From Zymoseptoria tritici IPO323 (lineage: Eukaryota; Ascomycota; Dothideomycetes; Mycosphaerellales; Mycosphaerellaceae), in assembly GCF_000219625.1 (NCBI RefSeq), contig NC_018206.1, positions 992,001 to 1,056,000 of the forward strand: a stretch of 64,000 nt of DNA, given 5' to 3'. The position numbers and the translations under genes were made by a program. The notes beneath the pieces are model-generated. The model did no database searches and had not been told where the DNA came from. It saw only the letters and a program-made list of their open reading frames with translations. This document shows, in pieces, positions 11,942 through 58,200 of this stretch; the first letter of the stretch is position 1, and the number at the start of each line of letters is the position of its first letter.

Positions 11942-13251
11942 CTAAGCAGGCGAATGCTTGCAACGATAGACACACCGACCATTCGTCGAATACGTATCCA
12001 ACCATGGTGTGATACATGAACCTGGAAGGGCATAAGGATTAGCAACGCTCAGAGAATAAGGCGGGGCGGACTCGGGCAGGTTCGGACGCAGTGAGCCTTG
12101 TGCCTTTCGAGAAACTTACCGTGAAATCGATGACCGCAAGGGAGAGTCGAGCGCTCTTCGCCGACCTTGTATTCTTCCTGACAAATACCGCATGCATCGT
12201 CATCTTCGACCAGATCCGCCTCTTCCAGCTGAATCGTCTCTTGCGCAACCGAAGCTGGAAGGTGCGGTATGCGGCGCGCTCTCGGCACACCGGGACCATT
12301 GGCGAAGATGTTCTCCAGTATCCCCTGCCAATAATCACCGCCCACCGGTGGATGATGTCGCCATGGCGAGTCTGTTATCGCGGCATCGTCTCGATCCCAT
12401 TGTGCTAGTTCTGGAGTCTGAGCATTGCTCTCATCGTGCGTGAACCACCATTCTGTAGTGGCGATAGTGCGCTGCAGGATCTGATCCATGTGCACACGCT
12501 CTTCTGCATTTAGGATGAGAGTCGCGCTAGGACGTGCCAGCGGAAGAGATCCATCGTGGGCGAGGCGCTGGCGATAAGTCTGCAGCATGGTAATTCGATT
12601 TTGCCAGGTCTGAGACGCGGGAGCGACATTCGCGGTCGTAGAGAAGATGGGAGTTTCCGGGGGAAACTCAATCAGTGCGCCATTGCCGTGGTCGATGGCG
12701 TGTTGTAGCAGGTCCATCTGCCGGTGTAAGATGTCCATGACGTGGATGTAGTCTTCTCGGATGAATAAGCCGACTCTGTCGATGCCTTCGAGTGTAATGT
12801 ACTTGAAGAGGAAGATGTTGTCGGCTTCCACATCAAGAATTTCAATCTGCACCCTGCAGTAGTCCACGGAACCTCTCATGTAGTCCGGAGCCGCTTGAAG
12901 TTGCTCCAGCTCACGCACACGTCTCTGCTGCTCACGCTCGAATCCGAGGTTGAATTCTTCGATGGTCTGTCCATCTCTCAGGAGCCAGAAGCCCGATCCC
13001 TGGACTGAGTCTCCGTCTGATCCTTCATCTGATCCCTCGTATGATTGTGTATCCGATTCATCGTCAGAGTCCTCATCTGACGCCTCCTCCTCCTCTTCAC
13101 CTGACACTCGATCAGATCCTTCAAGCTCAGGCGATGTACCGTGGCTTGAAGACGAGCCTGCGTCGGATACATTGAAGCCATCCACAGGGAGGGCCGCTTG
13201 GCCGAGAACTGCGAAGTAGTTGTTGCTTCGGGCCATAGTTCCTCGGTCCAT
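11942..13251 (-). CDS. RING-H2 finger protein, cluster copy A
   Basis: Two exons on the minus strand, 13251-12120 and 12021-11942 (98-bp GT-AG intron), 403 aa. Reading through the donor gives a broken RING; splicing restores it: CGICQEEY...LPCGHRFHGSC...W...RCVYRC. RING-H2 proteins usually act as E3 ubiquitin ligases; substrate unknown. N-terminal half: Ser/Asp/Glu-rich acidic stretch at about 35-80, then a family domain containing LEGIDRVGLFIREDY and QILQRTIATTEWWF, shared with copies B-D. The last cysteine pair is spaced C-x3-C, not the canonical C-x2-C. The start MDRGTM matches MDRRNM in copy C, supporting this ATG. The intron is absent from the equivalent position of the other copies. Confidence 0.88.
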
Positions 13252-28661: not shown

Positions 28662-30410
28662 TCAAGCAGACGGCCGTGGGCACCGATAGGGACAGCTACC
28701 ACCTGAAATCAACCAACGTGTAACACAAAATCTATGAAACTGGTGCGCACACGGCAAGGTAGACCGCTCCTCACCAGCCTCGTAATCCTCCTGGCAGATG
28801 CCACAAGGATTGTCTGCGACGACGTCCGCCTCTGTGACCCGCGCAATCTGCTGAGCAACACCTTCATCGGATGTATGACGAAGGCCGTTCTCGAAAACTA
28901 CCTCGAGCATATAAGCCCACTCACGAAACCTGTCGAGAATGCTGTGCGTTGGTGGAGGCTCGTGCTCGGGCCGCGGCCCTATCCAGGGTTCATTGGAGTC
29001 GACACCCATCCAGTGCATCATGTCCGGGATGACGGAGTCGCCTTCGTCGTGGGTGAAGTAGTACTGAGTGACGGCGATCTGGCGCTGAAAGATGCGATCC
29101 ATGCGCACACGGTCGTTGCTGTTGAGAATGATCATCCCGCCGCGTCGCTCCAGTGAAAGGGAACCGTCGCGATTCATGCGCTCTCTGGAATGCTCAAGCG
29201 CAGCAACACGATCTTGAAGGGTGTGAAGGGCAGCAACATGAGGCTGAGGGCCATGAAAGATTGGATCGCGGTGTGGGAAGGTCAACGGTTGGCCGGCGTT
29301 GATGCTGGTTTTCAGCTCGTTGAGTCGGTCGAGGAGGAGATTCTCGAACCAGAGCTGGTCCTGGAGCGTGAAGAGGCCGACTCGATCGACTCCTTCAAGT
29401 GTTACGTAACCCCACGAAGACACAGTATCCAGCTCCAGGGTGAAGATGAGCACTTGCGCGCGACAGTATTCAATAGTCCCGGGTTCTGACCCTGGACCAG
29501 CTTGCGCAAGTGCCAGCTCACCCACACGTTCCTCATGCTGCCTCTCCTGCTCTTCAAATGCAGCTGCCATCGGATCGGCGTGAACGGGCTCTTGAGGTAC
29601 AGGACCACGATATCTAGTAGCGTCGAAGGGCCCTTCCTCGAAAATCTCATCCAGAATAGAGACCCATTCGGCATGGCTCGGATCGACGCTGTCATCGTCA
29701 TCATTGTTAGGATCATCATAGTAATAATCGTAATCCCTATCACCGTATCGCCCCGGAACAGTACCAAAGGGCAATCGTGGACCCGTCTCGGTATTTGCGT
29801 CGCGCGTGAAGTACCATTCAGTGACAGCGATGGCGCGTTCGAAGATACGGTCCATGTGCAGTCGCTCCCGTCCATTGAGAATCATTGTTTCGCTGAGTCG
29901 CGCGAGGGACAGGGAGCCATCCAAGGCGAGTCGTTCTCTACAGTGTTGCAGGAAAGCGACGCGCTCTTGCCAAGTCTGAGCGGTGACATCGCCAGGTCCG
30001 GTAGGGTAGAAGATTGAAATCTCCGACGGAAAGACCGTCGGGGTGTTGGAATTGCGGGAGGCTTGAAGCAAACGGCTGTGACGCTCTAGTATTTGCTTGA
30101 CAGCCATGTAGTCTTCCCGAGTGAAAAGACCAACACGACCGACTCCCTCGAGATCGATGTGGGCATACATGTTCAGGTAGGCGAGCTCGACCCTGAGGAT
30201 GGCGACTTGGGTGCGGCGGTATGCAATTGTTCCTCTTATTGAACCTCCGCCCGCTTGAGCAATTTCCAGCTCACGTAGGCATTCGTCCAGGATCACCATA
30301 TCGTCACGGTCGTCTGAACCGGGCATGAGAAGGTCCTCGTGCTCGCCAGGGCCAGCCTGGTCGAAAATAGCAAAGAAGTTGGTGTTGCGACTCATGTTTC
30401 TTCTGTCCAT
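28662..30410 (-). CDS. RING-H2 finger protein with duplicated family domain, copy C
   Basis: A single exon of 582 aa, starting MDRRNMSRNTNFFAIF. The family domain occurs twice, at about 65-215 and about 305-460: LEGVGRVGLFTREDY / LEGVDRVGLFTLQDQ, QTWQERVAFLQHCRERLALDG / TLQDRVAALEHSRERMNRDG, MDRIFERAIAVTEWYFTRD / MDRIFQRQIAVTQYYFTHD. The RING-H2 is at the C-terminus (CGICQEDY...LPCAHQFHRFC...W...SCPYRC), with the family's C-x3-C final pair. Likely an E3 ubiquitin ligase; partners unknown. It is longer than copies A and D because of the duplication. The intron seen in copy A is absent here. Confidence 0.9.
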   Translation of the reverse strand: MDRRNMSRNTNFFAIFDQAGPGEHEDLLMPGSDDRDDMVILDECLRELEIAQAGGGSIRGTIAYRRTQVAILRVELAYLNMYAHIDLEGVGRVGLFTREDYMAVKQILERHSRLLQASRNSNTPTVFPSEISIFYPTGPGDVTAQTWQERVAFLQHCRERLALDGSLSLARLSETMILNGRERLHMDRIFERAIAVTEWYFTRDANTETGPRLPFGTVPGRYGDRDYDYYYDDPNNDDDDSVDPSHAEWVSILDEIFEEGPFDATRYRGPVPQEPVHADPMAAAFEEQERQHEERVGELALAQAGPGSEPGTIEYCRAQVLIFTLELDTVSSWGYVTLEGVDRVGLFTLQDQLWFENLLLDRLNELKTSINAGQPLTFPHRDPIFHGPQPHVAALHTLQDRVAALEHSRERMNRDGSLSLERRGGMIILNSNDRVRMDRIFQRQIAVTQYYFTHDEGDSVIPDMMHWMGVDSNEPWIGPRPEHEPPPTHSILDRFREWAYMLEVVFENGLRHTSDEGVAQQIARVTEADVVADNPCGICQEDYEAGEERSTLPCAHQFHRFCVTRWLISGGSCPYRCPRPSA

Positions 30411-34490: not shown

Positions 34491-35867
34491 ATGAACGCTC
34501 TCAGAAACGCTGCCGGCCTCGTGTTTCCCGTCCTACGCACAGGAACCAATACGGCTTCAACTACTGCCGACCTCGAGGCCTGCCGCACTCGACTCGATCA
34601 ACTCCAACAAATTCGCCGCAACACCTTTGCGGTCCTCGATCCGGGATTGATCTTGGCGGGAACCAGGGAGATCGGCCTTCTCACACTCCAAGATAGGAAC
34701 AACCTCGAAGCCATTGTCGACCGCCGGATCTTCCTGTTGGAAACCGCCATCATGACCGGTGTACCGATGGATCTTACGCGTGATGACCTCGTCCCCATCG
34801 ACCCTGCGCAACCCACTCTTGGTCTCGGCGACCATCGTACTCCACTCTTGGTGGCGTACAGACAGGCGATGCACGAGCACGGCTCACTCGGACCCATCTT
34901 CGCGCTCAGCGACGAGGAGAGGGCACAGTTGGATCGTGTCCTCCAGCGTGAGATCATCCGCTCTGAACTCTTCGCCAACGACAACTCTGATGCGGACCTT
35001 GCGGAGTACCTCTATGAGCAGTGGAACACCGCCGACGGCATCGAAGCTGGAGTCGAGTGGGTTGCCCCGCCACCGATTGAGTTCACCTTCCAAGGTCAGA
35101 ATCCAGGGTTTCTTCCCATGGACTATTATGGTATGCTGGCTGCGCTACCGACACTCCCAAACCCTCGGCAGCTCGCTCAGCTCACGGCAGGAGAGCGTAT
35201 GCAGTTCCGGCTGATTGAGGAGGATAGGAATCCAAGCAGAGAACCGCAGAGTCCCTTGCAAGCTGACGCCCATCACCTCGCACGTCAGCTCCAAGCGCAT
35301 GGGGATGTCGCCCTCCCTGCTTCACTGGTTCCTGCCGCCGCGACGGACGACGTCCGAACAACGGCAGCAAGAATGGATACCGACCTTCATGACCTCACGG
35401 ATCGCCTCCAAGCTTTGGGCCGTGACCTCTACTATCAGGTAATGAACCATGGTCTTGTGCTCTTTCCCGAACCAGGTCGTGTTGACGTTGCGGTGGAAAG
35501 TTTTGAGGCGAGAGACGCGCTGGCCCGACACCAACAAGGTCGCATTCTCGGCGCTCTTGTCCAGGCTTTCACTCATACCCGCCCGGATCCGTTCGGATAT
35601 ACTCTCGTTCGCAACGTCGAGCCTGACTCTGTCCCGTCATCTCCGGTTCGCGGTCCCCTTTTGGCACTCGAAACGACTCAGGTGACCGAGGAGGACCTTG
35701 AAGGCGAAGACAACAGGTGCGGAATGTGTCATGAAGATTACGCAGTTGGCGAAGAGTGGTCGAAGCTCCCGTGTACTCACAGATTCCACAAGGACTGCGT
35801 GACACCGTGGCTAAACGAGTATAGTCAGGATGGGCGGTGTCCCTACCGTTGCGAGCCTCCTCAGTAG
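34491..35867 (+). CDS. RING-H2 finger protein, cluster copy D
   Basis: A single exon of 458 aa, the only cluster member on the plus strand and the most diverged. The family domain is recognisable by LAGTREIGLLTLQDR and AQLDRVLQREIIRSELF. The C-terminus has a RING-H2: CGMCHEDYAVGEEWSKLPC, then THRFHKDC, W, RCPYRC. The final pair again has C-x3-C spacing. Probably an E3 ubiquitin ligase of unknown target. Confidence 0.87.
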   Translation: MNALRNAAGLVFPVLRTGTNTASTTADLEACRTRLDQLQQIRRNTFAVLDPGLILAGTREIGLLTLQDRNNLEAIVDRRIFLLETAIMTGVPMDLTRDDLVPIDPAQPTLGLGDHRTPLLVAYRQAMHEHGSLGPIFALSDEERAQLDRVLQREIIRSELFANDNSDADLAEYLYEQWNTADGIEAGVEWVAPPPIEFTFQGQNPGFLPMDYYGMLAALPTLPNPRQLAQLTAGERMQFRLIEEDRNPSREPQSPLQADAHHLARQLQAHGDVALPASLVPAAATDDVRTTAARMDTDLHDLTDRLQALGRDLYYQVMNHGLVLFPEPGRVDVAVESFEARDALARHQQGRILGALVQAFTHTRPDPFGYTLVRNVEPDSVPSSPVRGPLLALETTQVTEEDLEGEDNRCGMCHEDYAVGEEWSKLPCTHRFHKDCVTPWLNEYSQDGRCPYRCEPPQ

Positions 35868-40619: not shown

Positions 40620-41372
40620 TAGTATTATTATTCGGAGCTAGTCTAGAAAGGCGCGATGCCGTTATACTAATAGTAGTTTTGTTATCCTATCCGCGGGCAT
40701 TAAGGTAGTTTCGACCTATTCGACCTTAAGGTCTCCGGCTTAGTACCTCTTACGTAGCTAGCACTGCTATATATCTACATACCTTATCTTAGTATCTAGC
40801 TTTTAGCCTTATATAGTAACGACTCGAATAGTTTGCTTGTTATTATATAACAACCTGCCCTTACTGTTAAGGCTTAGGTCTATGCTTTTAAACACTCGTT
40901 CCTACTAGATTATCTCCGTTCTAGCATAGCTAAGTATATATAGCTCTAACTCCGTAGATAATTTAGTAACTATAGTCTACTTCGTAGACTTCTAGTCGAT
41001 AATTCCTCTAAATAAGAAGAAAACTATACCCTCTAAGCTTCTTCGCGTCTCTAGATCGTCTACGAACGAAGTATCTAAGGCTCCGAAGAACTCTAGCGGT
41101 TACGATAGGTAGGTAAGCCTACTGTCGTCTTTGCTATACTAAACGCTTAATTAAGAGCTTTATAGTAGATATCTAATGTAATAATCTACTACTTTAAGAT
41201 AATGTTCGGCTAGATTTACTAGATAACGTACTAGTAAAGAAACTATAAAAGCGATATCCGGTCTCGTATAGGATGCTACGAAGTTAAGAGAACTAACTTT
41301 TAACTACATCTCCTTAATTATATAGGGTTTCGCCTTTTCTTTTGCCGGTTCCTAATTAAAGTTTATCGGTAG
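40620..41372 (-). pseudogene. C1 pol 3' part: RNase H
   Basis: Minus-strand copia RNase H: RPDIAFIVSLLVRYLVN (about 41220-41267), then SFVDDLETRRSLEGIVFFLF, STELELYILSYARTE and YVDI near the end, interrupted by TAG stops. It is continuous with the RT part at 55203 upward once G2 is removed. Confidence 0.85.
41369..41372. repeat. G2 target-site duplication, left copy
   Basis: GTAG, matching 55203-55206 directly after the right LTR. Four bases is short, so this alone is weak, but it coincides with both LTR ends. Confidence 0.6.
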
Positions 41373-41680
41373 TGTAGTGGGGAATATCGCACTGTCACGT
41401 GCGGTCTGTATCTAGCTTCAGCTTCGTGTGCAGGTCGGAGGATCAAAAAAAGACATCGACCTACGGAGGAACAGGACACCGACTACTAGCACCTCCGGAA
41501 GGACCTTTAACACGCATACGAGGCCTAATAGTACAGAGCTCTTAATACTACCTCTTTTGCCCCCCTACCTTTTACTCTAATTGTACAGTTTACCGCCCTT
41601 TTTGCCCCCTATACTACCTCGTACGTCCGCACTACTACTATCCGCGGGAGATCGGAACCTTTAGAAGTTCCCCCCTTACA
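41373..41680 (+). repeat. G2 5' LTR
   Basis: 308 bp, the partner of 54895-55202; the differences seen are transitions. Confidence 0.94.
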
Positions 41681-42042: not shown

Positions 42043-42230
42043 AAATACACGAACACATAGACACATTCCCTATACCCTACCGAGCTGCATACCCTACACC
42101 AAGCAGCTCGTCGATACAGCCTAAGAAGGAGAAGGAAGAAGCCGAGGAAGCAAAAGAGTACATAAAAAAGGGACACTAACATCGCATAGAGGCTCGGTGT
42201 AAAGCGCTCTCGCACTAATATATACAACCG

Positions 42231-42834
42231 CGCTACCGGACTCGGATGTACGCCCTTAAAGCGCGACGCTATAGCGGAGAGCATATCGACTATAATAGAC
42301 GCGATTTGGGGTAAAAAGAAGCCTCCTAGGCCCAAAATCGTACTACTATAGCTTTTCCTATGCCCGACTACCTACTAGTAAAGGTAAGCGAGACGAGCGG
42401 CGACCGCACCTACCGAGGTAGGTACGCTAGGCGTGCGGTAAACCCTATACGAGGCGCTCGTAAAGAAAAGAAAGAGAAATAGGGTAGAAAAAGAGCCCTT
42501 AAGTACCTAGAAAACTTCACCGGTCGCAGTAAAAGTTATAATAGACATAATAGACATCGGAGATTATCGCTCCTACACCTATACGAGCGACTACGCTACC
42601 GAGCTTAGCTGCACGCCTTTAAAACGCGACACTGCTACGGAGATAATATCGACTCTAACAGATGCAAAATAGGGTAAAAACAAGCCTCCTAGGGCCAAAA
42701 TCGTACTGCTATAGCTTTTCCTATGCCTAACTACCTGCCGAGGCAGGTAGGCTAGGCGTGCAGCACAGCCTATAGGTGGCGTTCGTGAAGAAAAGAAAGA
42801 GAAACAGGGTGGAAAAAGAGCCCTTAAGTTACCG
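42231..42834. repeat. Direct repeat in G2 leader
   Basis: Diverged copies starting CGCTACCGR near 42231 and 42594 share blocks such as AAGCCTCCTAGG and AGAAAAGAAAGAGAAA. An indel near the middle changes the offset. Confidence 0.75.
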
Positions 42835-43510
42835 ACTGCCGTGGTGGCCATAATAGACATGCTGGACATTAGAGAATACTCGGTCACGTAAGCCGTCCCG
42901 TGCTCTCGATAGAATGGCTATAAGAAACGAGACTAACTAGCTATTATGGCGTAGGCGTCGCGAATACCCTAAGAAACGTCGCCCTATCGCACCGATCGTC
43001 CGACTGCTCCTCGGTATTGCTTTCCGAGGCAATAGCAGATAATATCGCTACGAACCCGGCACTAGAACTAGGGAGCATATAAGCCCTGCCTAGATCTACC
43101 GACACTAGGTTCTCGGTACGAGAATGCGATATGTAGTTCTCGGCTCTAGCTAGCTAGAATAGTCTAAGAGGTGCGACCTTTCGAGGATGCGATGTTTCCT
43201 AGACTAAATTAGGAAGAGGGTCTAGTAAACAAATAATACCGAGCTATAGACCCTAGACGCATCCCTAGTCCTTATTTCCCTACCCTAGACTCTTCTACAC
43301 TGCACGAGAAGCGATCCCGCCTTATTCTCGAGTTTCTGGATACTTAGCCGTCCTACGTGCCCGGAACGTACGAGTACACCCTGCCTATACTAAGGAGACT
43401 ATCGAATATAGCCCTAGGCTATATGTAAACGGCATAGTTAGCTGTAATGCACTACTAGCAGCAACAATGTTTCCTAGACTAATAGTCTAGCAAACCCTCG
43501 AGAGCTTTAA

Positions 43511-46500
43511 ATGTCCTACTCCCGCCGCCCTAGTCTCGACGACAACTTGCTAACCTTTTCCTATACGCCTTCCGAACACGCATCTGCACTCCTTACTTCC
43601 TATTTCCCTATTTACGACACTAAGCTGTATATCGCTATTACGATATCTCCTAATAACACTCCTAATAACGGCCCGGACGGACCCTCCCGTCGTAGCTATC
43701 TTAATACTCCCTCGGAGATTCTCCGCAATACCCTAAGTACTAGCGAGGCTTCCGGAACTAATAGCCCTATCTAGGTACCTTCTAATGCTCGCGCCTTCCG
43801 CGATAGCAATAGGATTCTATCGGCTCGCTTTGCAACTAATTCGACTAAAGGGTCGACTAATAAGGCTCTCCCTTAAGCCGAAGGGATTGCTACTACAGCG
43901 ACCTATAATACAGTTCCCGCTCCCTAGCCTGCTAATATAAACATCGCAGATCTTGTTACTGCCCTTACCGCAGCTACTCGCAATAACAGAGCCCCTGCTT
44001 ACTATAGTCGCGTACCCTTCCCTAGAGAGCCTAGTACTCTATCCTTCGACGGCAAGGATGCCTCGACTTTCTTCTAGACTATAGCCGACTTCTTCGATTC
44101 GTACTTTAAAGGATTACGCACTCTTAATAGGGAAAGGATCTAACTTGCTACTTAACACTCGGTGCCGGATGTTCGAGCTTAGCTCGAGAGTCTTTTAGGC
44201 TTTAACAGCGAAAACTACGAAGCTTTTAAGGAAGAGGCTCTTTCCTACTATCGGTGCTATAATAGCTAGGTGTATAAGTACAGCCTCCCTTTCCTCGAGG
44301 AGCTGTGCGTAAAGGAAAGAGTCTGGAATATCTCCGGACAGAAGGATAACCTGCGTTAGTACGTTATAACGTTTAAAGCGGTCTCGAAAAGGATACCTCT
44401 TAAATAGTGCAACGAAGTCGCTTAATACTACCTCTTCCTTAAAGGCTTGCCCTCCGAGGTAGGACAGGAAATTATAAACAAGCTCGAAGTAGACGTCTCG
44501 AACCTAGCCTCCTGTACTTAGCTTCCTCTATTATACGATACGACACTTAAGTACGTTACAAGCCGCATAGCTTACTAGGAGTTGTACGGCAAGGGCAAGA
44601 GCTAGGTTACTAGCTAGCTTGTTAACTAGACTAAGAAGAGGTATCCGAAGCTAGATATATCGAACGATAGAGTCTAGTCGTTACGCGTACTAAAAGAGAA
44701 GCTGCCGGACATAGAGGACCTGTCTAAAAAGCTTTCTAAGATAACTATTACTAAGATTAAGCGTACAAGAGCTAAGAGAAGTGCACGTATAGCTATTAAT
44801 CTACCTAGAGACTTTCCGAAGTCTTATATAGCTACGCTATATACCGATAATACCCCTAATTCTCCCGAGTACTACTCGTATAATATCGCTAGACCTAGAC
44901 TAGTGCCCTATTAGTCGTCTAGCAGCTCGAACCCCTTCTACTAGGAAGCCTCCTAGTATATATGCTTTTATTGCTTTAAACCCGGTTATAGTATTCACGA
45001 ATACAAGTACATAAACTACCTCCTAAGTGCGGGCTAGATATACCGCGATAGTAAAAAGAAGTAGTAAATCGGACGAGAAGGTAATGTTAATAGATAAAAG
45101 GTGCAGTTTAGGAACTGGCCGGATTAGCCTAAGCTCCGGATAATAGCTCCCGCTATCGAGAAAGCATAGGGAAGGGCTATTACCTAGCCTGCCGATGCGA
45201 ATATCGAGGATGCTAAGAAGTACTAGCTAGCTTATAAACTACCTGCAGCTGCCTTTGCTCCTCGGACATATGTACCGAGTACACCTCTTAACCCGGCACT
45301 TGTTCCTAGCCCTGTTCTACCGACCTTAAAACCTGTACCCTCGTTAACAGCTTAACCTAGTTACCTAGGCTAAGGCTTAGGCTCCCCTATAGGACCCGCA
45401 CTAGCGACGAATATAAATAGAAACTAGTGCAACATCGTCGCTAGAAGTACGGTTCCTAAGGATCTAGTATATATTAATAAGCGAGACCCTCGTGCCCCCT
45501 ATGTAAATTAGATCCGTACTAACTCTCTATCTGCGAACGCTGCGACTAGGCTAACGAGTATAGCTAAGGGAAAGGAGCTAGCCGCTAAGCCGAGCAATAA
45601 TACTAGTCGTATTGTGAAGCCTAAGAAGACAGTATCTATTAAGATCGATGCCCGCTAGATCCCTAATACAGAAGAGTATATAACGGTAGTCGAAGAAGGC
45701 TTATAGTCGATATAGGGCACTCTTACTAGTAATAGTACATTTAACACCGGTAACCAGCCGCAGTCCGCAAACGACAGCCAGACCTAGGACCCTACTAGAA
45801 GCATAGACCTAGATCCTACCCCTCCTTCTTAGGGCTTCGTTAACCCCCCGCTGCTAAAGAAAAAGAAGAACTAGAAGCCTACTGCGACTAGAAAGGGTGC
45901 GCAGAGAAGGGACATTTACCTTCGAGAGCGGCTTAATATAGAAAAAGTGCTGCTCGACAGGATACTAGCGCAGCCGTCTAATATCCCTGTTAGGGAGCTT
46001 CTCGCTACCTCGCCTGCTATAGCTAGGGGACTTCTTAAGCGCTATGCTCGGAACTAAGAAGACTTTGCAATAGCTGCTAAGGAAGCCGGGCTGTCGATTA
46101 TCGTTAAGGAGGACAATATTACTACTACGGCAGTATACTAGTACAATATAGACGAGCCGCTTCGTTCTTACAGGGTACGAGTCGAGTTTAAACTTAGTAG
46201 TGCTACTGCTAAGTATATCCTACCCTCTAGATTTTATGTACGTAATAGGTTCGTAGAAGAGATAGAAGACGATAACCCTGCTTTCCTCGGTCCTATAGTT
46301 AAGGAGCTATATATTACTATGCCCCCGAGACTAATGCAGGATCTGTACGAAGACCCTAAGGACGCGAGGTTGTCCTTTAACGACCGGGACTATGTTATTG
46401 TACCCTCGCCCGTTGTAGAATGCATTGTCGGTCTAAAACGATATAGGGAACGTCGTGCTATAATTAACGAGGGATCTAAAGGGAACATTATAAGCTAGTC

Positions 46501-46870
46501 TGCGGTAAAGCGAGCGGGTATTAGCATACGCACCTGCCGGCTAATATAGATAAATACGGTTAGTAGCTATGCGGACTTCCTAGGTATTATAGAGCGGGTA
46601 CCGATCGAGGTTATAGGAGTTCTTACCTACTCGTCGTTTCTTGTTATACAGACTACACCTTTCCTTCTCGGCCGACTATAGACTAGACAGGTGCGGCTTA
46701 GATCTGTAAACTGCGACGACGGGTCCCTCGAGTGCACAATCGCGACACCGGATAGAACAACGATTACCTTTACTAGAGTTAAGGGATACGGAGACAGGTA
46801 CAGTCCGACCGAGGCATTTTATATAACTAAGCCCGAGGAGTCGGGAAACGAGTAGGCTGCCGACACCCTA
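43511..46870 (+). pseudogene. G2 gag and protease, RIP-inactivated
   Basis: Starts MSYSRRPSLDDNLLTF. Gag core: PSTLSFDGKDASTFF (about 44030) and LPFLEELCVKERVW. A damaged zinc knuckle lies near 44960-45010 (CFYCFKPGY...HEYKY), where the expected His and Cys are Tyr, both explained by RIP-type changes. A protease-like region (SAVKRAGISIRTC) is near 46500. The frame changes near 46870 before RT. Ends are approximate. Confidence 0.75.
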
Positions 46871-49800
46871 GTAACGTAATAGCATTATTCAACTATCTAG
46901 AGGATTACTTACAGTCGTCCGGAACGAGACTACTAGTCGAAGTCGACCCGAAACCTTTCCTAGACCCCGGGTCTAGCAAACATTTCCTTAGTACCTAGGA
47001 TAAAGTAAGGGCTTAGGATAAGTTCCGGACTATTACCTCGACGAAATACACCCTTAATCCCTCGGATATAGTCTAGGAAACTACCTTACAAGCTCGAGTA
47101 GCGTCGCTGCTTATTAAGTAGGCGGATATTCTCTAGTTAGATTACCTCTAGCGTAAAACGGAATAGGAGGTAGGATCTGCTCCGAATGCATACACTATAT
47201 ACAAACGCAAGGCGGACAAGATTAGACCTGTTAATAGTAGTATTCACGACACTAGCAGCAAGCCCCCTAGTAGTACTTTTAACTAGCGGCAGAGATGTCT
47301 TAAAAATAAGGCTAAACTTATACCGAGCACGCACCCCTAGGACAACAAGTACCTTATCCCTAAGTTTTCCGACATCGAGAAGGATTCGAGACTTACCCCT
47401 AAACGCATAAACAGCTTTAAGACTACAATCGAACTAAAGCCGAAAGAACTCGAGCTTTTTTATGCCTATCTCTTCCGACGAGAGAAGTCTCTTACTTAGG
47501 ATTTCTTATATGTCGGTCGCCTTAACGAGGATGTTTCCCTACTAGTAGAGATCCGCACGATTCCGCATAAGGCCTAGCAGTATAAGAACTTCCCTATCCC
47601 CGCAGCCCTCGAGAAGGTAGTAATATAGATAGTTAGTAAGCAAGCCTATAATAGAGTAATCGAGCTATCCTATAGTGCATACCGGAACCCCTAGTTTATC
47701 GTGCAAAAGAAGCTAAACAACCTAAAGCTACTAAAAGCTAAGGACCCTATGCCGGAAGGGGAGTGTGTCTAGGAAAAGAAGGAGGAGAAGAAGTACCGAC
47801 TTATTAACTTAGCTATAGAAGTAAACTATGTTACGCTAAGGGATGCTAATATGCTACCGGACGCAGACTCCTTTTCTGTAGACTTCGTAGGGTACACTAC
47901 TACCTCGCTTATAAACCTCTTCTCTAGATACGACTAAATACCCCTAGCCGAGCACTGTCGGGACCTTACCTCCTTTTATACACTGCTCGGGCTGTTTAGG
48001 CACATAGGGATTCCTATAGGCGGAACGAATTCGGTCGCTTAGTTCTAAAGGATTATAACTACTATCCTTTAGGAGCATATAAATTACCGAGCTCGCCCCT
48101 TTCTAGACGACATTAGAGTTAAAGGTCTACGCACTACGTACGATAACGAGGAAACCGAGCCCGGCATCCGACGTTAGGTTGCTAAATATATTACGAACCT
48201 TAACGTAGTCCTTACCGACATTAAGAGAGCCGGACTTACTATATTAGCTCTTAAGTCGCGATAGTTCTCGACAGGGGTACTAATTATCGGGTACGTTTAT
48301 AATATGCATAGCCGACACCCTAATAAAGCACGAGTCGTTAAGGTTACCGAGTAGCCTGCTCCGGACAACCCTAAGGAGGTTCGAGTATTCCTAGGCGTGG
48401 TCGTGTACTTCCGCATCTGGATTAAGAAGTACGCACAGGTGTTAGCTCCGCTGTACAATCTACTAAAGCCTAATGTGTGCTAGTGTTAGACTACTAAGTA
48501 TAACGCATCGATAGAGAAATTAAAGAAGGCTCTCGTTACTATACTAGCTCTTAAGACTATAGACTACGTTTCGGGAGGACAGATTATCCTTGCTATTAAT
48601 GTATCCGGGGATAGGTTCGGAGCAGTCCTTATATAACGAGATGTCGACAACTATAAGACAAGACACCTATCTCGGTATAAAAGCGGCATCTAGAAGCCGA
48701 ACGAGCGAAAGTTCGATGCTAGGAAGCTTAAGTGCCTCGGTGTTTTAAAGGTATTAAAGAAACTAAAGCACTATCTCTACGGTGTTTACTTCCTACTTAA
48801 GCTAGATGCGAATACTCTAGTCTATTAGTTAAACCGACTACCGACCGACTTGCCTAACGTAGTAATAACAAGGTGGCTTTTATAGATATAACTATTTAAT
48901 TTCGATATAAAGTATGTTCCCGGCCGACTATATACTACTGTAGACGCGCTATCTCGACGACCGCGTACTTAGTCCGATAACATTAACAAGGAGCATAAGC
49001 AGGACTACGAAGAAATAATTAATAGCACGCTATATGTAGTATACGCGAATCGTATCGAGGCCGAAGAGATTACCCCTAATCTAGAAGAGGAACTTGTTCG
49101 GAATAGCATTAACAGCTTCCTCTCGGACTTCTACCGCGATATAATATACTACCTCCTAACCCTTCGACGACTAGTAGGAGTAAATAGGAACAGCTAGTAT
49201 GCCTTTAAGAAACAGGTATCTTGCTACCTAGTTAGGGAGCGCTGCCTGTAGTATTAGAAAAGAATTAACAAGCTACTATATAGAGTTATTAACAAGGAGT
49301 CTAAGTAGAAGTCGATTATCCGTACCCTCTATAGGGACCCTACCTCCGGCTATAGAGGGCGTAAAGGGACCTATATAAAGATCGCTTGTTAGTATTACTA
49401 GCAGGGACTGTATAAGTAGGTCCGAGATTTCGTTAGAAAGTGCCCTAAGTATCTTCTTCGATCGTCCGGACTAGCGAGTATATCGGAACTGCACCTAAGA
49501 TATAATAGCTATATTAGCGAGTCGTAGCATATAGACGTCGTTTATGTCGATAGCTCCGGAAGCATTATTATAGCTAGGGAGTCTCTCTCTAGATAGCCAG
49601 AAGGAAGGATCGTAAATAAGGGGCAGAATTAAGGTGTAAGTTTAAAGTAGGTCGCGAAGTTTCTTTTTAAGGACGTCTTCTTACGTACTAGGGCCTATAA
49701 CTAGATCTTCTTTAATAGAGGGCCTAAGAACTACGGCGATATGCCTAAACTACTAGCTTAAATAGATACAAACCTTAGTTATATATCCGCCTACTACCCG

Positions 49801-50610
49801 GAAGCAAACGGTCTAGTCGAGCGTAGACATCCTAACATCCTAGACGTCCTCTTAAAGTGTACGCAGGGCAAGCTAAAGGGCTGGAGATCCTTTTTCTACG
49901 CAGTACTATAGGCAGACCGCACTACTATTCGCAGGTCTATAGGATGTACGCCGGCAAGTCTTTTCTATGCATTTAATATCGTCCTACCTATTAAGCTACG
50001 GTACGACACTTAGAAAATAATTAACTAGAAGACGGTTCGTACGACCGAAGACTTGCTAGCCGCTCGAGTAAGGCAGATCTTCTACTCTAAGAAGGATGTT
50101 AGAGAAGTTACCGCCCTATAGCGTAGGCTACGAGATGCCTAGAAGGAGTACTAGAATATAAACTATAATATCGACTACAAGCCGCTTAAGAAGGGGCAGC
50201 TCGTGCTATTAAAGAGAGGCGAGCGAAAGTCTACCTACGAGAAGCTGTCCTTTCGATAGAAGGGGCCCTACCGAGTAATAAGTATAAGCCTAGACACCGG
50301 TACCTACAAGATTGCAGAGCTAGACGAGGCAGAGCTCTAAGGTACATAGTCTAGGGACATACTTCGGGTAGTCCCTACAGACTACCTCGAGCATATTAAT
50401 AAGCTCGAAAAGCTAACACGCGGGGACTTGAACCCTAGATGGCTTACAAGTGTTAAGAGTAAGGATAAAGAGCCGGCATTACCTTAGGGCGACGACCCTA
50501 CTGCTAAACAGTATAGAGAACCGGCTCCCGGACCTCCGAACATCGTATAGGGAGTAAGGGAATCCTCGCTATCCCCGGAAGAACGATTACAGTACCTAAG
50601 AATCTAAGTG
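46871..50610 (+). pseudogene. G2 pol: RT, RNase H and integrase, RIP-inactivated
   Basis: RT: YRLINLAIEVNYVTLRDANM (about 47800), SVDFVGYTTTSLINLFSRYD, RPFLDDIRVKG (FLDD at 48100-48111), and EVRVFLGVVVYFRIWIKKYA. RNase H: KPNERKFDARKLKCLGVLK and LLKLDANTLVY, then VPGRLYTTVDALSRRP. Integrase: a zinc-binding-like start, DVVYVDSSGSIII, and YYPEANGLVERRHPN. The end has a chromo-like or SH3-like tail without a clear chromodomain. The RT belongs to a different Ty3/gypsy lineage from G1. Stops are mostly TAG. Confidence 0.85.
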
Positions 50611-51775
50611 CGGCTATAATTCGCATTAAAATGTTTCCTAGACTAAGGGTCTAGCAAACATAGCGACGGATGCTCTCGGCTTACTATAGTTGTTTCCTAG
50701 ACTAGTAGTCTAGCAAAGGCTCCGCTCGCTCTCTCGGGCAAACATTATTATTACCCAAAGAGACACACACATTTCTTTATGTTAAAGTAAGCTCTTTCGC
50801 TTATAACAAGACCCCCGGCACGACCTTATCTCCGTCCTCGCCGACATCTATCTAATAGACCGACACCGCTAAACTCTTCCGCACTACAATTACTAGCGCA
50901 TTTATAAAGAACAATTACGAGCAAATTCACGCACACATTTACGAGCGAGCAGCTGTTATTATTACCTCCTGCCGGCGGACATCTTTTAAAGGCTAGTGCT
51001 ACCGGATAGGCCTAGTTGTTTGCTAGACTATTTAGGGAAAGGGGTCTGGTAAACATTTACGAAGGATAGGACATTGCCTAGGTGTCTCTGCTAGCTACGA
51101 CTAATCTACTATTGTTTAGAGCGTACTAAATATACGTTCTCTACCCTAAAGGGGAGGGAGTTACAATTCACGAAGCTTAGTTACCCTTTCGGACATTTAG
51201 GGGCTAGGCTGCCTTTTTCTAGACAATTATGTACATTCTGCTACAATTACGAGACTGCTAATGCGAAACATTCACTAAACTAACAATTACCAACACAACA
51301 ATTACCGACACAACAATTACAGGCCTTTCCTAACAATTACGAGCTCTTCTAATAATTACGAGCACGAGTACGCACACAATTTACGAACAAGTAAGGGACC
51401 CGCTTTCTACCTGCTCGCCCTACTTAAAAGCCTTAATCTTCTCTATACCTCCGACTTCCCTATAACATCTACTATATCTTCTTTCTTTCCTATCTCCTTA
51501 CACCCTCCCTAACAACTCCTTTTCCTCCTAGACGAACCTTATCTACGTCCTCGCAGACCTTCGACCTAATTAAACATCCTCTACGGGCCCCCCCCTCGAC
51601 ACACTTACTAACCGAGCGCATTAGCGCAAAACAACACCGAGCGCGCCGAGCGCATACAACACACATACTAACCGAGCGCATTAGCGCAAAAATAACACCT
51701 TCGAAACGATACGAGCGCACCGAGCGCACACAACATACCCTAATAACGAGCGCAACTGCGCATACTACTACCGAC
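50611..51775 (+). other. G2 spacer between pol and accessory frame
   Basis: Non-coding. It has three hairpin repeats, many ACAATTACGAG-like units at about 50890-51390, and a 60-bp tandem repeat at about 51601-51720 (two ACTAACCGAGCGCATTAGCG units). The minus frame 51490-51990 is a by-product of these repeats and of the accessory gene in antisense. Confidence 0.6.
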
Positions 51776-54560
51776 ATGGACAACATCCTAGCTCGCCTTC
51801 GGAGCGCGCCCTTAACAAATAATAAAGAAATGCGGGTAGCCTTCTCGACTACATAGAACACTAGAGAGCTAGGAAAACTCGAGAGTCTCCTTAAGAGCAT
51901 ACTAGACGCGGACCGCGAGCGAGTAGTATTAGACATCGTTAATACCTTAGAATTAGGATTAGAAAAAGCAGCAGAGTTTGTAGCAGGCATATAGGATTTC
52001 GTACGGATAAACCGGGTCCCTATTACCTTAGGAACCGGGAGGATTACTAGACAGGACAGTATTGCAGCTGCTTATCCGAGGCTAGTAGCGGCAGCTATAG
52101 ATAGCAGGAGGACCCGCAACCGCAAGAAGGGCATTTACGACGCCCTTACAAAAGAATAGGGACAGGACGTAATAGATGCAAACCCGGAACTAAGGCAATA
52201 CGTGTACAAATCCGAGAATATAGCAAAAGAGATTCGAAAGCTGTCTTCGAAGTATAAGACGTAGTCCGATAAGGGTACGACAGTAGCTATGCTTGTTTCA
52301 CAAGAATACATTCGTTAGTACAGTTAGGGCGCTAGATAGGGACATGTAGATCCGAGAGGGACTAAGTACACTACTAAGGACTTCTTTACAGTCGCTAAAC
52401 TAGGAGGAATCGATCGCCCTACATAGGAGCAGATTAACATCGTACGCAACACGTACAACCGGCATATAGATAGTCGTAGGTAGATAGTGCCCTACAAGCC
52501 TAAGGGAAAGGAGAAGGAAATTGCGTCTAGATCTAACACTTAGAAGTAGATCGAAGCACCTCCCGCTATAAGTACGCGGTCTAAAACTAAGGAAAAGCTA
52601 GCTAATCTCGGCAGTCTCCCTATCCGTAGTACCCCTTCCGAGAGTAGCTCCGGCCGCCCCTAAATACCCTACTCCGGCAGATCCATTTCCAGCTCTAGTC
52701 TCGGAGGGAGTATCTACGCGAGTCCTATTATTCGCACTACGGGAAGGGCTCGCTTAGTAAGTTAGGCAGTAACTGAAACATAGATCGCTCTCGGCATGCC
52801 TATTACGGAACCTACGAACGCGACCTATAATTGTAAGAACGCCTTACCTTAAATTATCGCTACGATTAATAGCCTAAGGAGGCTTCCGCTTTCGCAACGT
52901 CTTGCTACCCTAAACTAGCTATTTCGATGCCTACAGCTGCTATATCCGGACAGTACGAAGCTAAAGGATAAGTGCATGTTCCTATGCTACAATTATGCGA
53001 GGGACCTGCTTCGATACTTTGGAATTAAGGTAAAGACCGGGAATGTAATAGCAAAGAACAATACGCTCTTTAAACTTACTACCCTTAAGTACGATACGTA
53101 CAAGCTTAGCTAGCTAAAGACAGGTTCCGAGACGTACAAGATGTAGTTTAAGGATGCTCGTCCGTCTCGACTATCGGACTTCCTTAGGCCGTACCGCTTC
53201 GACAATAACGTCCTACGCCGAGAACTCGGCCAGCTTAACTTTAACGGCTTCTTTAACAAGGCTCGCTAAGCGATATACTTAACGGCCGGTTAGGAGAACG
53301 AGTTTAAGAGAAATAGCACGCTTAACATTCCCCTCTTCGCGTAGATCGGATAGGACAAGGCCCTTTGCAAGATTATTAATAAGGAAATAGACATGTACTT
53401 GTAGCATTAGCGCGAAATTAATAGCTAGCCTAACTACGGATAGCTTCGCACGATGTGCTACTCTTAGATCTAGCAGCTTATCCGCTAGGACATCTTATAC
53501 TAGCTGCTATATGTTCTTCTACGAGGTAACTATAAGCACCGGCTGGTGTTATACCTATACTACGCTAAAAGCACTAAGAAGGGCGACAACACTACCTTTA
53601 AGCACATCGACCTTACGGTTAGCCGCATAGTCGAGGAGAATCGCGGTATTAACCAGATTTAAGGTACGGTCTCCTTAACAGACGAGGGCAAGAAGGACTG
53701 CACGGTACTCGTTAAGAGGATGTACGAGAAGGAGATCTTTTAGGAATAGTACTAGTAGATAAGGGCTAACAACTGCGCAGACGGAGCAGTACAGAAGATT
53801 AATAATACAGTACTGCCGCAATACTTCCTAGATCGCTATAAGCTTAAGTAGGAACACGTTCCTTGCAAGGCATTTAATATTCGCATTACGGTTCCGCATC
53901 TACTACATAGTGTCGACACTAAGGTAGAGACCGAACGTCGAACAATTCTTCCCTAGTTCGTAGCTGTACATATAGATAGTTCTCTCGAATGTGCCGAAGC
54001 TAGTAACTAGGAGATGCTGCGCAAAGCTTATATAGACCTAACCGCCCCCGACAAGACACCCTCCGGGCTTATTAACAAGTACGGCAAGATTCCTTACGCC
54101 TTCCCTACGGCTATGTCTTTAACACCTAACAACTATATCGCTACTGCACTTGTTGCTTACGAGAAGTAGGAGAGCCCTAAAGTCGTCGTCGAACTAGAGA
54201 AGCTTATACGCCTTAATGTTGTCGATCTGAGGGCATAGATTAAGAAGCAGCGGGATGCGACTATAGCTCGAGTAAAGGCAAACTATAAGGATATTAAGTA
54301 CGCGGAGAGGAATATGTTCGGTAACCGATCGTACTACAACGCTAAGGACAAGCACCCGACCGACTTCTAGAAGCACTAACCTCTACTAGCTAAAGTCGCT
54401 CCTAACGATGCAGACGATAGGGAACGTAAGCTGCTTAGGCAGGGAGATACGGACATCGCAGTACCCTAGGAAGTCCCCGACTTACTTATTAGCAAGGATA
54501 GTAAGCGCGTACCTGGACGCGACATGCAGTAGGAGGATAGTACTTAGCGATAGGTTTATA
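51776..54560 (+). pseudogene. G2 accessory frame with a putative Fe(II)/2-oxoglutarate dioxygenase-like domain
   Basis: From ATG 51776 (MDNILARLRSAPLTNNK) one frame of about 930 codons is kept, interrupted almost only by TAG. The N-terminal third is helical and charged. The C-terminal half has TTFKHIDLTVSRIV with HxD at 53603-53611, a block NQI...GTVSLTDEGKKDCTVLV, and, 101 codons after the first His, VPHLLHSVD (His at 53906-53908) followed 10 codons later by Arg in TERRTILP. HxD...H...R is the Fe(II) and 2-oxoglutarate ligand pattern of the double-stranded beta-helix dioxygenases. From memory, fungal hypothetical proteins share the HIDL and SLxDE...CT blocks; no search could be run. No function is claimed. 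It is neither gag nor pol. Confidence 0.5.
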
Positions 54561-54894
54561 ATATTTCCTAGACTAAAATCCGCATCGGGTCTAGGAAACA
54601 TTTAGTGCGAACAGGACATAAGGAGCGGCTGTTTTCTGTACTAGCGCTTGTTTTAAGGTTCTTTTTTCTTTTTGTTATTTCTTTTGTTTTGTTTCTTTTG
54701 TTTTGGATACGATGCATACGATAGACATGCGTAGTGGGTGCAAAACCCGAGGATGGGGACAGTCTACGTTAGCAACAAGTTAAAAAGGACGACGCTAGTG
54801 CTAGATCTGGAGGGTTTTTACGCTATAAGCGTGCACAATAGTATAGTTTAGGTTCTTGCAGTGTCTAGGTTAGACACTACAGGAGGGGGACGGA
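54561..54894 (+). other. G2 3' region before the 3' LTR
   Basis: Holds the last hairpin repeat, a T-rich run (TTTTTTCTTTTTG near 54660) and the polypurine tract near 54880-54894. No gene. Confidence 0.55.
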
Positions 54895-55202
54895 TGTAGT
54901 GGGGAATATCGCACTGTTACGTGCGGTCTGTATCTAGCTTCAGCTTCGTATGCAGGTCGGAGGATCAAAAAAAGACATCGACCTACGGAGGAACAGGACA
55001 CCGACCACTAGCACCTCCGGAAGGACCTTCGACACGCACACGAGGCCTAACAGTACAGAGCTCTTAATACTACCTCTTTTGCCCCCCTACCTTTTACTCT
55101 AATTGTACAGTTTACCGCCCTTTTTGCCCCCTATGCTACCTCGTACGTCCGCACTGCTACTATCCGCGGGAGATCGGAACCTTTGGAAGTTCCCCCCTCA
55201 CA
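54895..55202 (+). repeat. G2 3' LTR
   Basis: 308 bp, the partner of 41373-41680, followed by GTAG. Confidence 0.94.
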
Positions 55203-58200
55203 GTAGAGGTATATCCGCCCTTTTTTTAGTTAATAAGACATTATATCTTCCGGCGACCTTCTTAATATAGGTGTCTTAGTTAAGCTATATGTCCCTAGTC
55301 TCTCTATTCCGGATAATTTTAATTCTATAGAAGTAGTCGATTAGGCCTATAACCCTTATCTCGTATTTAGCTATTAGCCTTTTCTATATATCTTCGGCGT
55401 AAACTTTGTGTTTATAATAAAATGCTAATATAATGTTATCGACGAAGAAGAAGATTATAACTTTTCTATCGGTGTATAGACAATTAACGACTTGCCGTAG
55501 TCTAAGCTCTTCGACTCCTTTACTTAGATCTCCCTACTATAGCGCTAGGGACTCCTTAAAGCCGTAAAGGGCGCGAACGCATTTTAATAGTATGTTCGGG
55601 TCTCGAAAACCGTCTAGGGGTTAAAGGTAGATTAGCGTCGGCAACTTAGAGTTTAGAAAGGCGTTTACGGCGTCTATCTAGATTGTTTCTAGGTTAAAGT
55701 GTACTATAATTGCTATTAACAACCTAAACAGCCTCGCTACGAGGGTAGCTACGTACGTGTTAAGCTCGGTTAACTATAAATCTCCTCTTATACAAATTCG
55801 AGCCTTAAACTTCTCTAAGTATCCTTTTAAGTCTTGTTTATATTTAAATACCTACATTAACGGGACGGTTAGGTTGTTTCCTACTTAACTTTTAGGGATC
55901 TAATAGAACGTTCTAGTGTCTAGAGCCTTTTAAAACTCTACTCTAGTAGCCTTTTCGAATTCCTTTAAGTACTTATATATAATAAGGTCTTTCTAGCGTT
56001 TTGGTTCTAGTAGTAAATCTCCGATAAGGATAGGTACGTCTTTTACGGATGCTCCTTCCTCTATAACCGCCTTTATTATAGTAATAGCGTAGACTTTAGC
56101 TATAGTCGCATAAGTCGCGAACATTCCCGTAGTATCGAATAAGGTTATTTCGCCGAAGTTAAAGTCTATAACCTCGGAGTTAAAGCTTAGAGGTAGCTAG
56201 TAGTCGATTATTCTCTACCGTTAAGCCGATAACGTTAGTTTATCGAGCTTATCGTCCGGATCTATCTATTCCGGTCCCCGCTTCTAAGCTTAATAGAAGG
56301 GGAAGAGTTAATTATCTATATATTCGATGCCTTAGACACTAATAAACGTTTCTACGATGTCCTCTCGTATCTCTTTAGGTCTATTATAGGGGATTATATA
56401 TTCGACATTACTATCGTCTTAAATTAGAGCACCTCTTCGGAAGGATTCCGGAATTTTAACCTTATTACCTTATCTAGCGATGTAGCTTATATATATAGCC
56501 TCTTATAGGTTATAAAATTAATATGCTTCTATAGCGTAGTCTAGTTCGACATTAATCGCAAGATTAAGTAGTACTACTATATTTAGATTAAAGTCGTAGA
56601 GTCCTTCGTACTTTATCTATTAGGGTCCGACCGGAGGTAGCTCCGGCTCGAACTAGCGACCTTTAGGTTCTAGGGTGGGGCGCTTTACTACTAGGCCAAA
56701 AGTGCCAAAAGACAAGAATTTCAGAACGGTGTTCTAAAATTGCGCCCTACTTTTAAAGGCTTAGCGCAGCCTAAGCCTATGCCCTAGGCACAGCCTATGA
56801 CATTATCTTCTCGTTAAATACTATATCTCTTGTCCTAATTACCCTATCTAGGCTTAGAATCTAGATTCGAAAGATATTGTGTCCCTCGAAGCCGACTAGG
56901 TATCCGATTCTTACTCGCTCTATTATCTTCTCCCTTTTAGGGACGTCTTTTAGATTAGTTTTATATATATACGCTCTCGACCCGAACTTATAAATATAGG
57001 CGATATCTAGCTTCTAGTTTGTCGCTATTTCCTATAGAGATTTGTAACTTAATACTTACGTTAGGGCCCTATTTATAATGTAGGCTACTATTACGTAGGC
57101 TTTATTCTAGAGATCCTTTAGGAGCCTCGATTCGATAATTAGTGTCCTTACTATCTCGACGATAACGCCGCCGGCTCGTTCTACTAGGTCCTATGCTTAC
57201 GTATACGGTGCTAAGGGCTTCTATATTACTAATCCCTTACGGAGTGCGGATTAAAACGTTAATCCGTACTTAGGGTCTACGTCCGATCTAAGGGCGAATA
57301 TTTTACGACCTATACTCTTTATAAAGGTCTAAAGTTCCTCGAAGTATCGTACTAGGCTCGCTTAATTAGCGTTCGGCATCGTCTAAACGAAGTGTAGGTA
57401 TGTTATTAAATCTACGGCGTAAAATATATATTTATCTCCGTTCTTTACTATATTAAATTCTACGATATCGGCCGCAACGTCGGAAAAAGGTACTAGCATC
57501 CTAATCTTAACCGGTTTTCTTCGAGAAACGACTCTTTTCGACTTACTCTAGGCGCATAAGTAGCATTCGTACATTTTAGGGGCCGCATCTCTATCTTTTA
57601 GATACTCTACGCCTTTAGCGGCTCGATAGAGTTCTAATATACGATTACCCCCGATGTAGCCTATAACTCGGTGCTATTAGGCCTAAGAGAGGACTCTAGG
57701 TCGTCTCGTAGCCCTACTATCCGTCGCGAAGGCGACGAGCTATTTATCGGCTAGTTAATCCCTTTTTAACGCTATCTCGACGCTTAGGGGTTAACTGTCC
57801 TCGTTAAGTAGCTAGTTAATAATTTTAATCCTTACTTTCGGCGTAGTCGCTAGGTTTAGGTATAGTAGGCCGCTATATCGCTTAATCTTAGTAACAACTA
57901 CTCCGGACTTATCTATCTAGTTATCGGTCCTCTCGTCTAAGAAGAGGCCGAAGCCTCTATATAGCCTAGTCGATACGATGTTAACGTAAAATCCGGGTAT
58001 ATATAGGACGTCCCTTAGTAATAGCGTAATCGGCTTACCTAAGGGTAATAGGAACTACACTTTTACCGTGCCTCTTATAGTAGCCTTTATCTATTAGTTC
58101 CCGGCGTAAATCGATACGTTATATAGTATATTAACGACCTCGAATCCCGCTATAGTTAGATTGTTTACGATATAAACGTTCGAGCTACTATCTAGAAGCT

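Follow-up and report, generated by a model that had tools for sequence, protein, structure and literature searches.

Remains of a probable Fe(II)/2-oxoglutarate oxygenase gene inside a Ty3/gypsy retrotransposon of Zymoseptoria tritici

What was encoded by the stop-ridden frame, here called G2, that follows pol in a 13.8 kb long terminal repeat (LTR) retrotransposon of Zymoseptoria tritici IPO323, and what would such an element gain from it? The window, the whole 64,000-nucleotide stretch analyzed, corresponds to positions 992,001–1,056,000 of the forward strand of NC_018206.1 (G000:C13:992001-1056000), in a genome of 39.7 Mb. G2 is a relic damaged by repeat-induced point mutation (RIP), and we judge it probable that it was the third gene of a fungal Ty3/gypsy retrotransposon and encoded an Fe(II)/2-oxoglutarate (2OG) oxygenase that would act on a macromolecule. 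This suggests that some fungal retrotransposons bring their own modifying enzyme. Coordinates are given in the table.

The original prediction had read about 930 codons in one frame after pol. The frame was confirmed at 928 codons, on the sense strand between pol and the 3′ LTR, and is not open, its stops comprising 41 TAG, 5 TAA and no TGA. Stop counts alone are insufficient to prove the frame, because the remaining two forward frames across the same interval contain 54 and 86 stops. When G2 was compared with 27 other copies, 2475 of 2596 differing cells were transitions, as RIP predicts. Selection was evaluated with transversions, since RIP does not make them, using 27 copies (25 and 26 for the two shorter stretches). 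Across 52838–54559, 21 of 37 distinct transversion variants were synonymous, against 15.7% expected (p = 1.3e-8), while the five other frames gave p values from 0.02 to 1.0. The middle part of G2 (52400–52837; 6/17 synonymous, p = 0.09) was not significant, and the control, the same frame of the 3′ untranslated stretch, gave 2/10 (p = 0.44). Because transversion variants are excessively synonymous in this frame, G2 is a gene and not an accident, and its frame shows purifying selection.

With stops masked, residues 355–928 found a single protein, P0001 (E = 9e-47, 32% identity), which as query returned 101 proteins including itself; a profile search raised the total to 112 (73 of at least 700 amino acids, 21 of fewer than 450). 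Named source organisms were Rhinocladiella, Venustampulla, Xylona, Penicillium, Sclerotinia, Botrytis, Coleophoma and a Phaeosphaeriaceae species, together with Candelina, Vezdaea and Pseudocyphellaria, genera of lichen type; all of these belong to the Pezizomycotina. P0018 is from Venustampulla echinocandica, P0050 and P0090 from Xylona heveae and P0087 from Penicillium cosmopolitanum. Most other relatives come from metagenomes. Alignment A1 contained 99 of the 101 relatives (P0046 and P0047 were left out).

The HxD motif, the second His 101 codons on and the Arg 10 codons further lie exactly where they had been placed, and they proved to be conserved. Across 101 homologues plus G2, the four columns read H in 99/100, D in 98/100, H in 98/99 and R in 98/99. 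In a second count over all 112 proteins, 99 of the 102 rows with all four positions aligned kept H, D, H and R (exceptions: P0068, P0090 and P0097), against a background of 43 of 603 well-filled columns with one residue at 97% or more. The two His were 91–110 positions apart in 103 rows. Judged from sequence, the relatives and the window copy would thus have the HxD...H iron ligands and 2OG-binding Arg of the superfamily. Also near invariant in relatives were a CxC...CxxH set (81/81, 82/82, 86/87 and 85/87) and W, Q-Q, R and C positions.

A double-stranded beta-helix, the fold of the superfamily, was predicted with high confidence in relative P0005, which together with the conserved His, Asp, His and Arg supports the Fe(II)/2OG-type context first proposed; neither of the two outcomes named beforehand as refuting it occurred. 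By computation, full-length relatives are shown to begin with a helical domain, followed by a disordered linker and then a further helical stretch containing CxC...CxxH, and to end in an Fe(II)/2OG oxygenase domain of PhyH/DUF1479 type. Predicted alone, the N-terminal domain (P0005 1–240) reached a mean predicted local distance difference test score of 78; Foldseek gave it no match at E ≤ 0.001, and no known fold was found. The folds nearest to the P0005 oxygenase domain are DUF1479/PhyH-type proteins (YPO2976, 7twe; YbiU, 4rgk; GIG2, 6akz), which share only 12–14% identity and were compared by overall fold; unlike them, the G2 family has the extra N-terminal domain, linker and CxC...CxxH part, and G2 is encoded inside an LTR retrotransposon. 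PhyH (PF05721) matched 47 of 112 relatives at E ≤ 1 (best 3e-9), with batch counts of 19/37 (hand-picked, rich in short and PhyH-named members), 12/38 and 16/37; P0001 (12.2 bits) and P0002 (18.5 bits) fell under the curated cut-off of 22. Five relatives carry PhyH in the database, and a few are already called phytanoyl-CoA dioxygenase in some databases, under names shown without mention of transposons. The suggested kinship with TET/JBP was not supported, Tet_JBP (PF12851) matching 0/112 relatives at E ≤ 1; in the structure-search lists, a family left unlisted, such as a TET/JBP-type fold, is not thereby excluded. AlkB (PF13532) likewise matched 0/112 at E ≤ 1.

That the dioxygenase-like gene lies inside a Ty3/gypsy element, as also claimed originally, agrees with the structure of the window copy. 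It is enclosed by an LTR pair ending in TG...CA, flanked in turn by a target-site duplication, and pol shows the gypsy-type order of reverse transcriptase, RNase H and integrase in one masked frame (the reverse transcriptase match being below cut-off); the gag-like region gave only a weak Ty3_capsid match (E = 0.068, under cut-off). All 11 differences between the LTRs are transitions, and TA/AT is about 1.8–2.2 in the element compared with 0.3–0.6 in gene-rich parts of the window, a RIP signature. Genome-wide, the 3′ LTR scored at least 40 matches.

G2 matched 62 stretches of this genome, which form a close group of 46 (identity at least 68%) and a divergent group of 16 (at most 37%), and most copies are linked to pol. 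Among the close group, pol lay upstream on the same strand within 6 kb in 37/46 and within 15 kb in 41/46; the divergent group gave 6/16 and 11/16, nine copies adjoining a divergent pol class. Copies within a lineage do not count as independent; what carries weight is the existence of two lineages. On C21, one divergent copy lies within LTRs of its own (251 bp, 96.8% identity; 384549–384799 and 397003–397253), between which lie pol (389951–391936) and then the gene (profile match about 393820–396657); for a second, no LTR pair was found within the stretches fetched. In a midpoint-rooted tree of 104 rows (98 relatives and six own copies), in which long branches and RIP-shifted composition make placements unsure, the two lineages separate: the divergent one groups with P0083, P0086 and P0091 (support 99/92), and that of the window with P0008 and P0054 (97/37, not firm) inside a 12-row group (84/88). 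Pol linkage, the LTR-flanked divergent copy and the two separate lineages suggest that the gene has traveled with gypsy elements for a long time, which for other species we infer.

At G000:C2:3241060-3261682, a pol (3241060–3243069) and gene (3260312 on) of the divergent lineage are split by a close-lineage copy (pol 3249796, gene 3255330–3257051), a spacing consistent with nesting of one of these elements inside the other.

Several observations weigh against the favored reading of G2. Linkage to gypsy is known from this genome alone, and stops are present in all 62 matches, so that the enzyme, whatever its action, did not spare the copies here. The window copy has no Pfam match, and comparing profiles against four PhyH proteins of the host gave a weak result (probability 2.6%). 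Stops at W556 and Q566 and Tyr at the CxxH His are changes that RIP would make; RIP does not explain some other altered near-invariant positions, such as codon 700, which is Phe in the window copy and Gly in 95/100 relatives. The Cys at C705 of P0005, present in 100/100 relatives, is Val in the ten divergent-lineage rows with letters (alignment of 46 rows, four without letters at the four positions). Because such positions differ, the lineages of this genome are diverged family members.

In the favored reading, Fe(II) would be bound through His/Asp/His and 2OG through Arg, a macromolecule would be hydroxylated or demethylated, and the N-terminal part probably brings the enzyme to its target. 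Orchid gypsy elements with AlkB and fungal DNA transposons with TET/JBP serve as analogies for a first guess at that target: it may be a mark by which the host silences the element, carried on the nucleic acid of the element itself or on its chromatin, an assignment to which we give slightly less than even confidence. Since C5-methylase-like matches occur in the host genome, as does a single MT-A70 match, the mark could conceivably be on DNA or on RNA. Protection from RIP is disfavored because every copy found here is mutated. The broadest version, an old and widespread fungal Ty3/gypsy clade with its own PhyH/DUF1479-type 2OG oxygenase that removes or alters a mark used by the host for silencing, be it on the DNA, RNA or chromatin of the element, and hence a further independent recruitment by mobile elements, is offered tentatively and may well be wrong.

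Foremost among the alternatives, though unlikely, is that the same enzyme hydroxylates a protein (such as Gag, integrase, or a chromatin or assembly factor of the host), aiding particle formation or integration and unrelated to silencing marks. 2OG oxygenases take varied substrates, and the long N-terminal and CxC...CxxH parts could bind a partner; no binding motif or partner was identified, and the same features fit nucleic-acid targeting equally. A pseudoenzyme whose fold serves the element as a scaffold for binding RNA or protein, comparable to the RESC14 subunit of the trypanosome RNA-editing complex, would not need the four catalytic positions retained in 99 of 102 relatives, and we regard it as improbable. 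Marginally lower still we rank a small-molecule oxygenase taken from the host and benefiting the host rather than the element: many named structural matches (SnoN, EctD, GriE, KanJ and FtmOx1) act on small molecules and the host has five PhyH matches over cut-off, one with stops, but two diverged lineages of elements carry the gene, which has an additional conserved N-terminal domain, and 0/7 PhyH matches in the genome coincide with a G2 match. The 46 stops and the missing Pfam match in the window copy might point to a chance motif in a RIP-degraded stretch, or to a host gene picked up just once, by a single copy; this is refuted by the homologues, their conservation, the predicted fold, the linkage seen in many copies and the purifying selection specific to this frame, and we give it practically no weight.

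We know of no earlier 2OG oxygenase in a fungal retrotransposon, and in a literature search no report was recognized of a fungal LTR element with one. Mobile elements with an accessory 2OG oxygenase are already known. Ty3/gypsy elements of the orchid Phalaenopsis are described as carrying an AlkB N6-methyladenosine RNA demethylase active in vitro (PMC9289625); like the G2 element they combine gypsy with an extra open reading frame (ORF) for a 2OG-Fe(II) oxygenase, which there is of AlkB type (PF13532), in plant elements of about 25 kb, and called a recent acquisition, whereas G2 is PhyH/DUF1479-like and fungal, with relatives in many fungi. TET/JBP genes are described in fungal DNA transposons and some Helitrons (PMC12730594), likewise fungal mobile elements with a 2OG oxygenase; those carriers differ in class, and the G2 relatives match PhyH instead of Tet_JBP. 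The extra ORF brtn of Boty-like gypsy elements of Botrytis (PMC8365987) is, like G2, an additional gene in a fungal gypsy element; by description (the title of a paper cited there) it is antisense, whereas G2 lies on the sense strand.

Conservation of a 2OG oxygenase in gypsy elements, even one from a different family, would demonstrate that enzymes of this kind can benefit retroelements. The family may reveal a host mark that fungal retrotransposons need to remove, and would give PhyH-like enzymes a setting outside metabolism. Nearly all of its 112 database proteins lack a functional name, and the substrate is directly testable in vitro.

Table. Positions of the features discussed, in window coordinates unless a contig is given.
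Feature	Position	Strand	Details
Target-site duplication GTAG, left	41369..41372	.	read from sequence
5′ LTR, TG...CA	41373..41680	+	308 bp; identity to 3′ LTR 297/308
gag-like region, RIP-damaged	43901..46859	+	fewest-stops frame; bounds approximate
pol frame, RIP-damaged	46801..50622	+	bounds approximate; Pfam, stops masked
Reverse transcriptase	about 47890-48294	+	RVT_1 at 364-498 of masked frame, E 2.2e-4, 21.5 bits vs cut-off 29.6
RNase H	about 48580-48888	+	RT_RNaseH at 594-696 of masked frame, E 4.4e-11
Integrase H2C2 zinc domain	about 49297-49461	+	Integrase_H2C2 at 833-887 of masked frame, E 5.1e-7
G2, third gene, remains of 2OG-oxygenase-like gene	51776..54559	+	928 codons, 46 in-frame stops
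N-terminal mostly helical domain	51776..52490	+	approximate; present in 65/99 relatives looked at
Part of conserved CxC...CxxH set, candidate metal site	52832..52996	+	its His is Tyr in window copy
Double-stranded beta-helix domain	53250..54180	+	approximate, via alignment to P0005 491-810
HxD, predicted Fe(II) ligands	53603..53611	+	CAC-xxx-GAC, codons 610 and 612
Distal His, predicted third Fe(II) ligand	53906..53908	+	CAT, codon 711, +101
Arg, predicted 2OG carboxylate ligand	53936..53938	+	CGT, codon 721, +10
Polypurine-rich tract adjoining 3′ LTR, upstream	54881..54894	+	read from sequence
3′ LTR	54895..55202	+	308 bp, TG...CA ends; pairs with 5′ LTR
Target-site duplication GTAG, right	55203..55206	.	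read from sequence
Tet_JBP-like/C5-methylase-like pairs	G000:C2:3841000-3860111; C17:16084-26753; C21:18659-28917		

Seven copies of a dyad, approximately GTTTSCTAGAC-N5 or N15-GTCTAGSAAAC (arms paired by us), were found at or near the gene boundaries of the element (43194–43230, 43469–43495, 46955–46981, 50633–50659, 50692–50718, 51018–51054 and 54563–54599), with no pair inside G2. A genome scan with a slightly degenerate form gave 55 forward and 54 reverse matches, and none with a reversed control. Of 49 listed sites, 46 lay near one of 26 pol places compared, 40 of these with offsets near -3932, +3232 or +7100 to +7300, matching the arrangement in the window. Each dyad can fold as an RNA hairpin (-7.2 to -13.8 kcal/mol) and may be a processing site, a reinitiation signal or a binding site. 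Between the 5′ LTR and gag, 42194–42829 contains direct repeats (208 bp at 73% and 97 bp at 87%), with no Pfam match better than E = 0.15.

At three places near contig ends, a Tet_JBP-like match starts about 9.5–9.7 kb from a C5-DNA-methylase-like match with stops, which looks like a subtelomeric repeat unit with both gene types. The C2 Tet_JBP-like match (E = 5.2e-7, 29.5 bits vs cut-off 34.9) lies in a 302-amino-acid ORF at L060:567-1475, within G000:C2:3841000-3860111, and a GmrSD_N-like ORF (E = 5e-5, under cut-off) lies between it and the methylase-like match. Elsewhere in the window, three ORFs with RING-finger matches (12049–13251, 28662–30410 and 34491–35867), all within 24 kb, flank a RIP-affected island at about 14–26 kb on either side.
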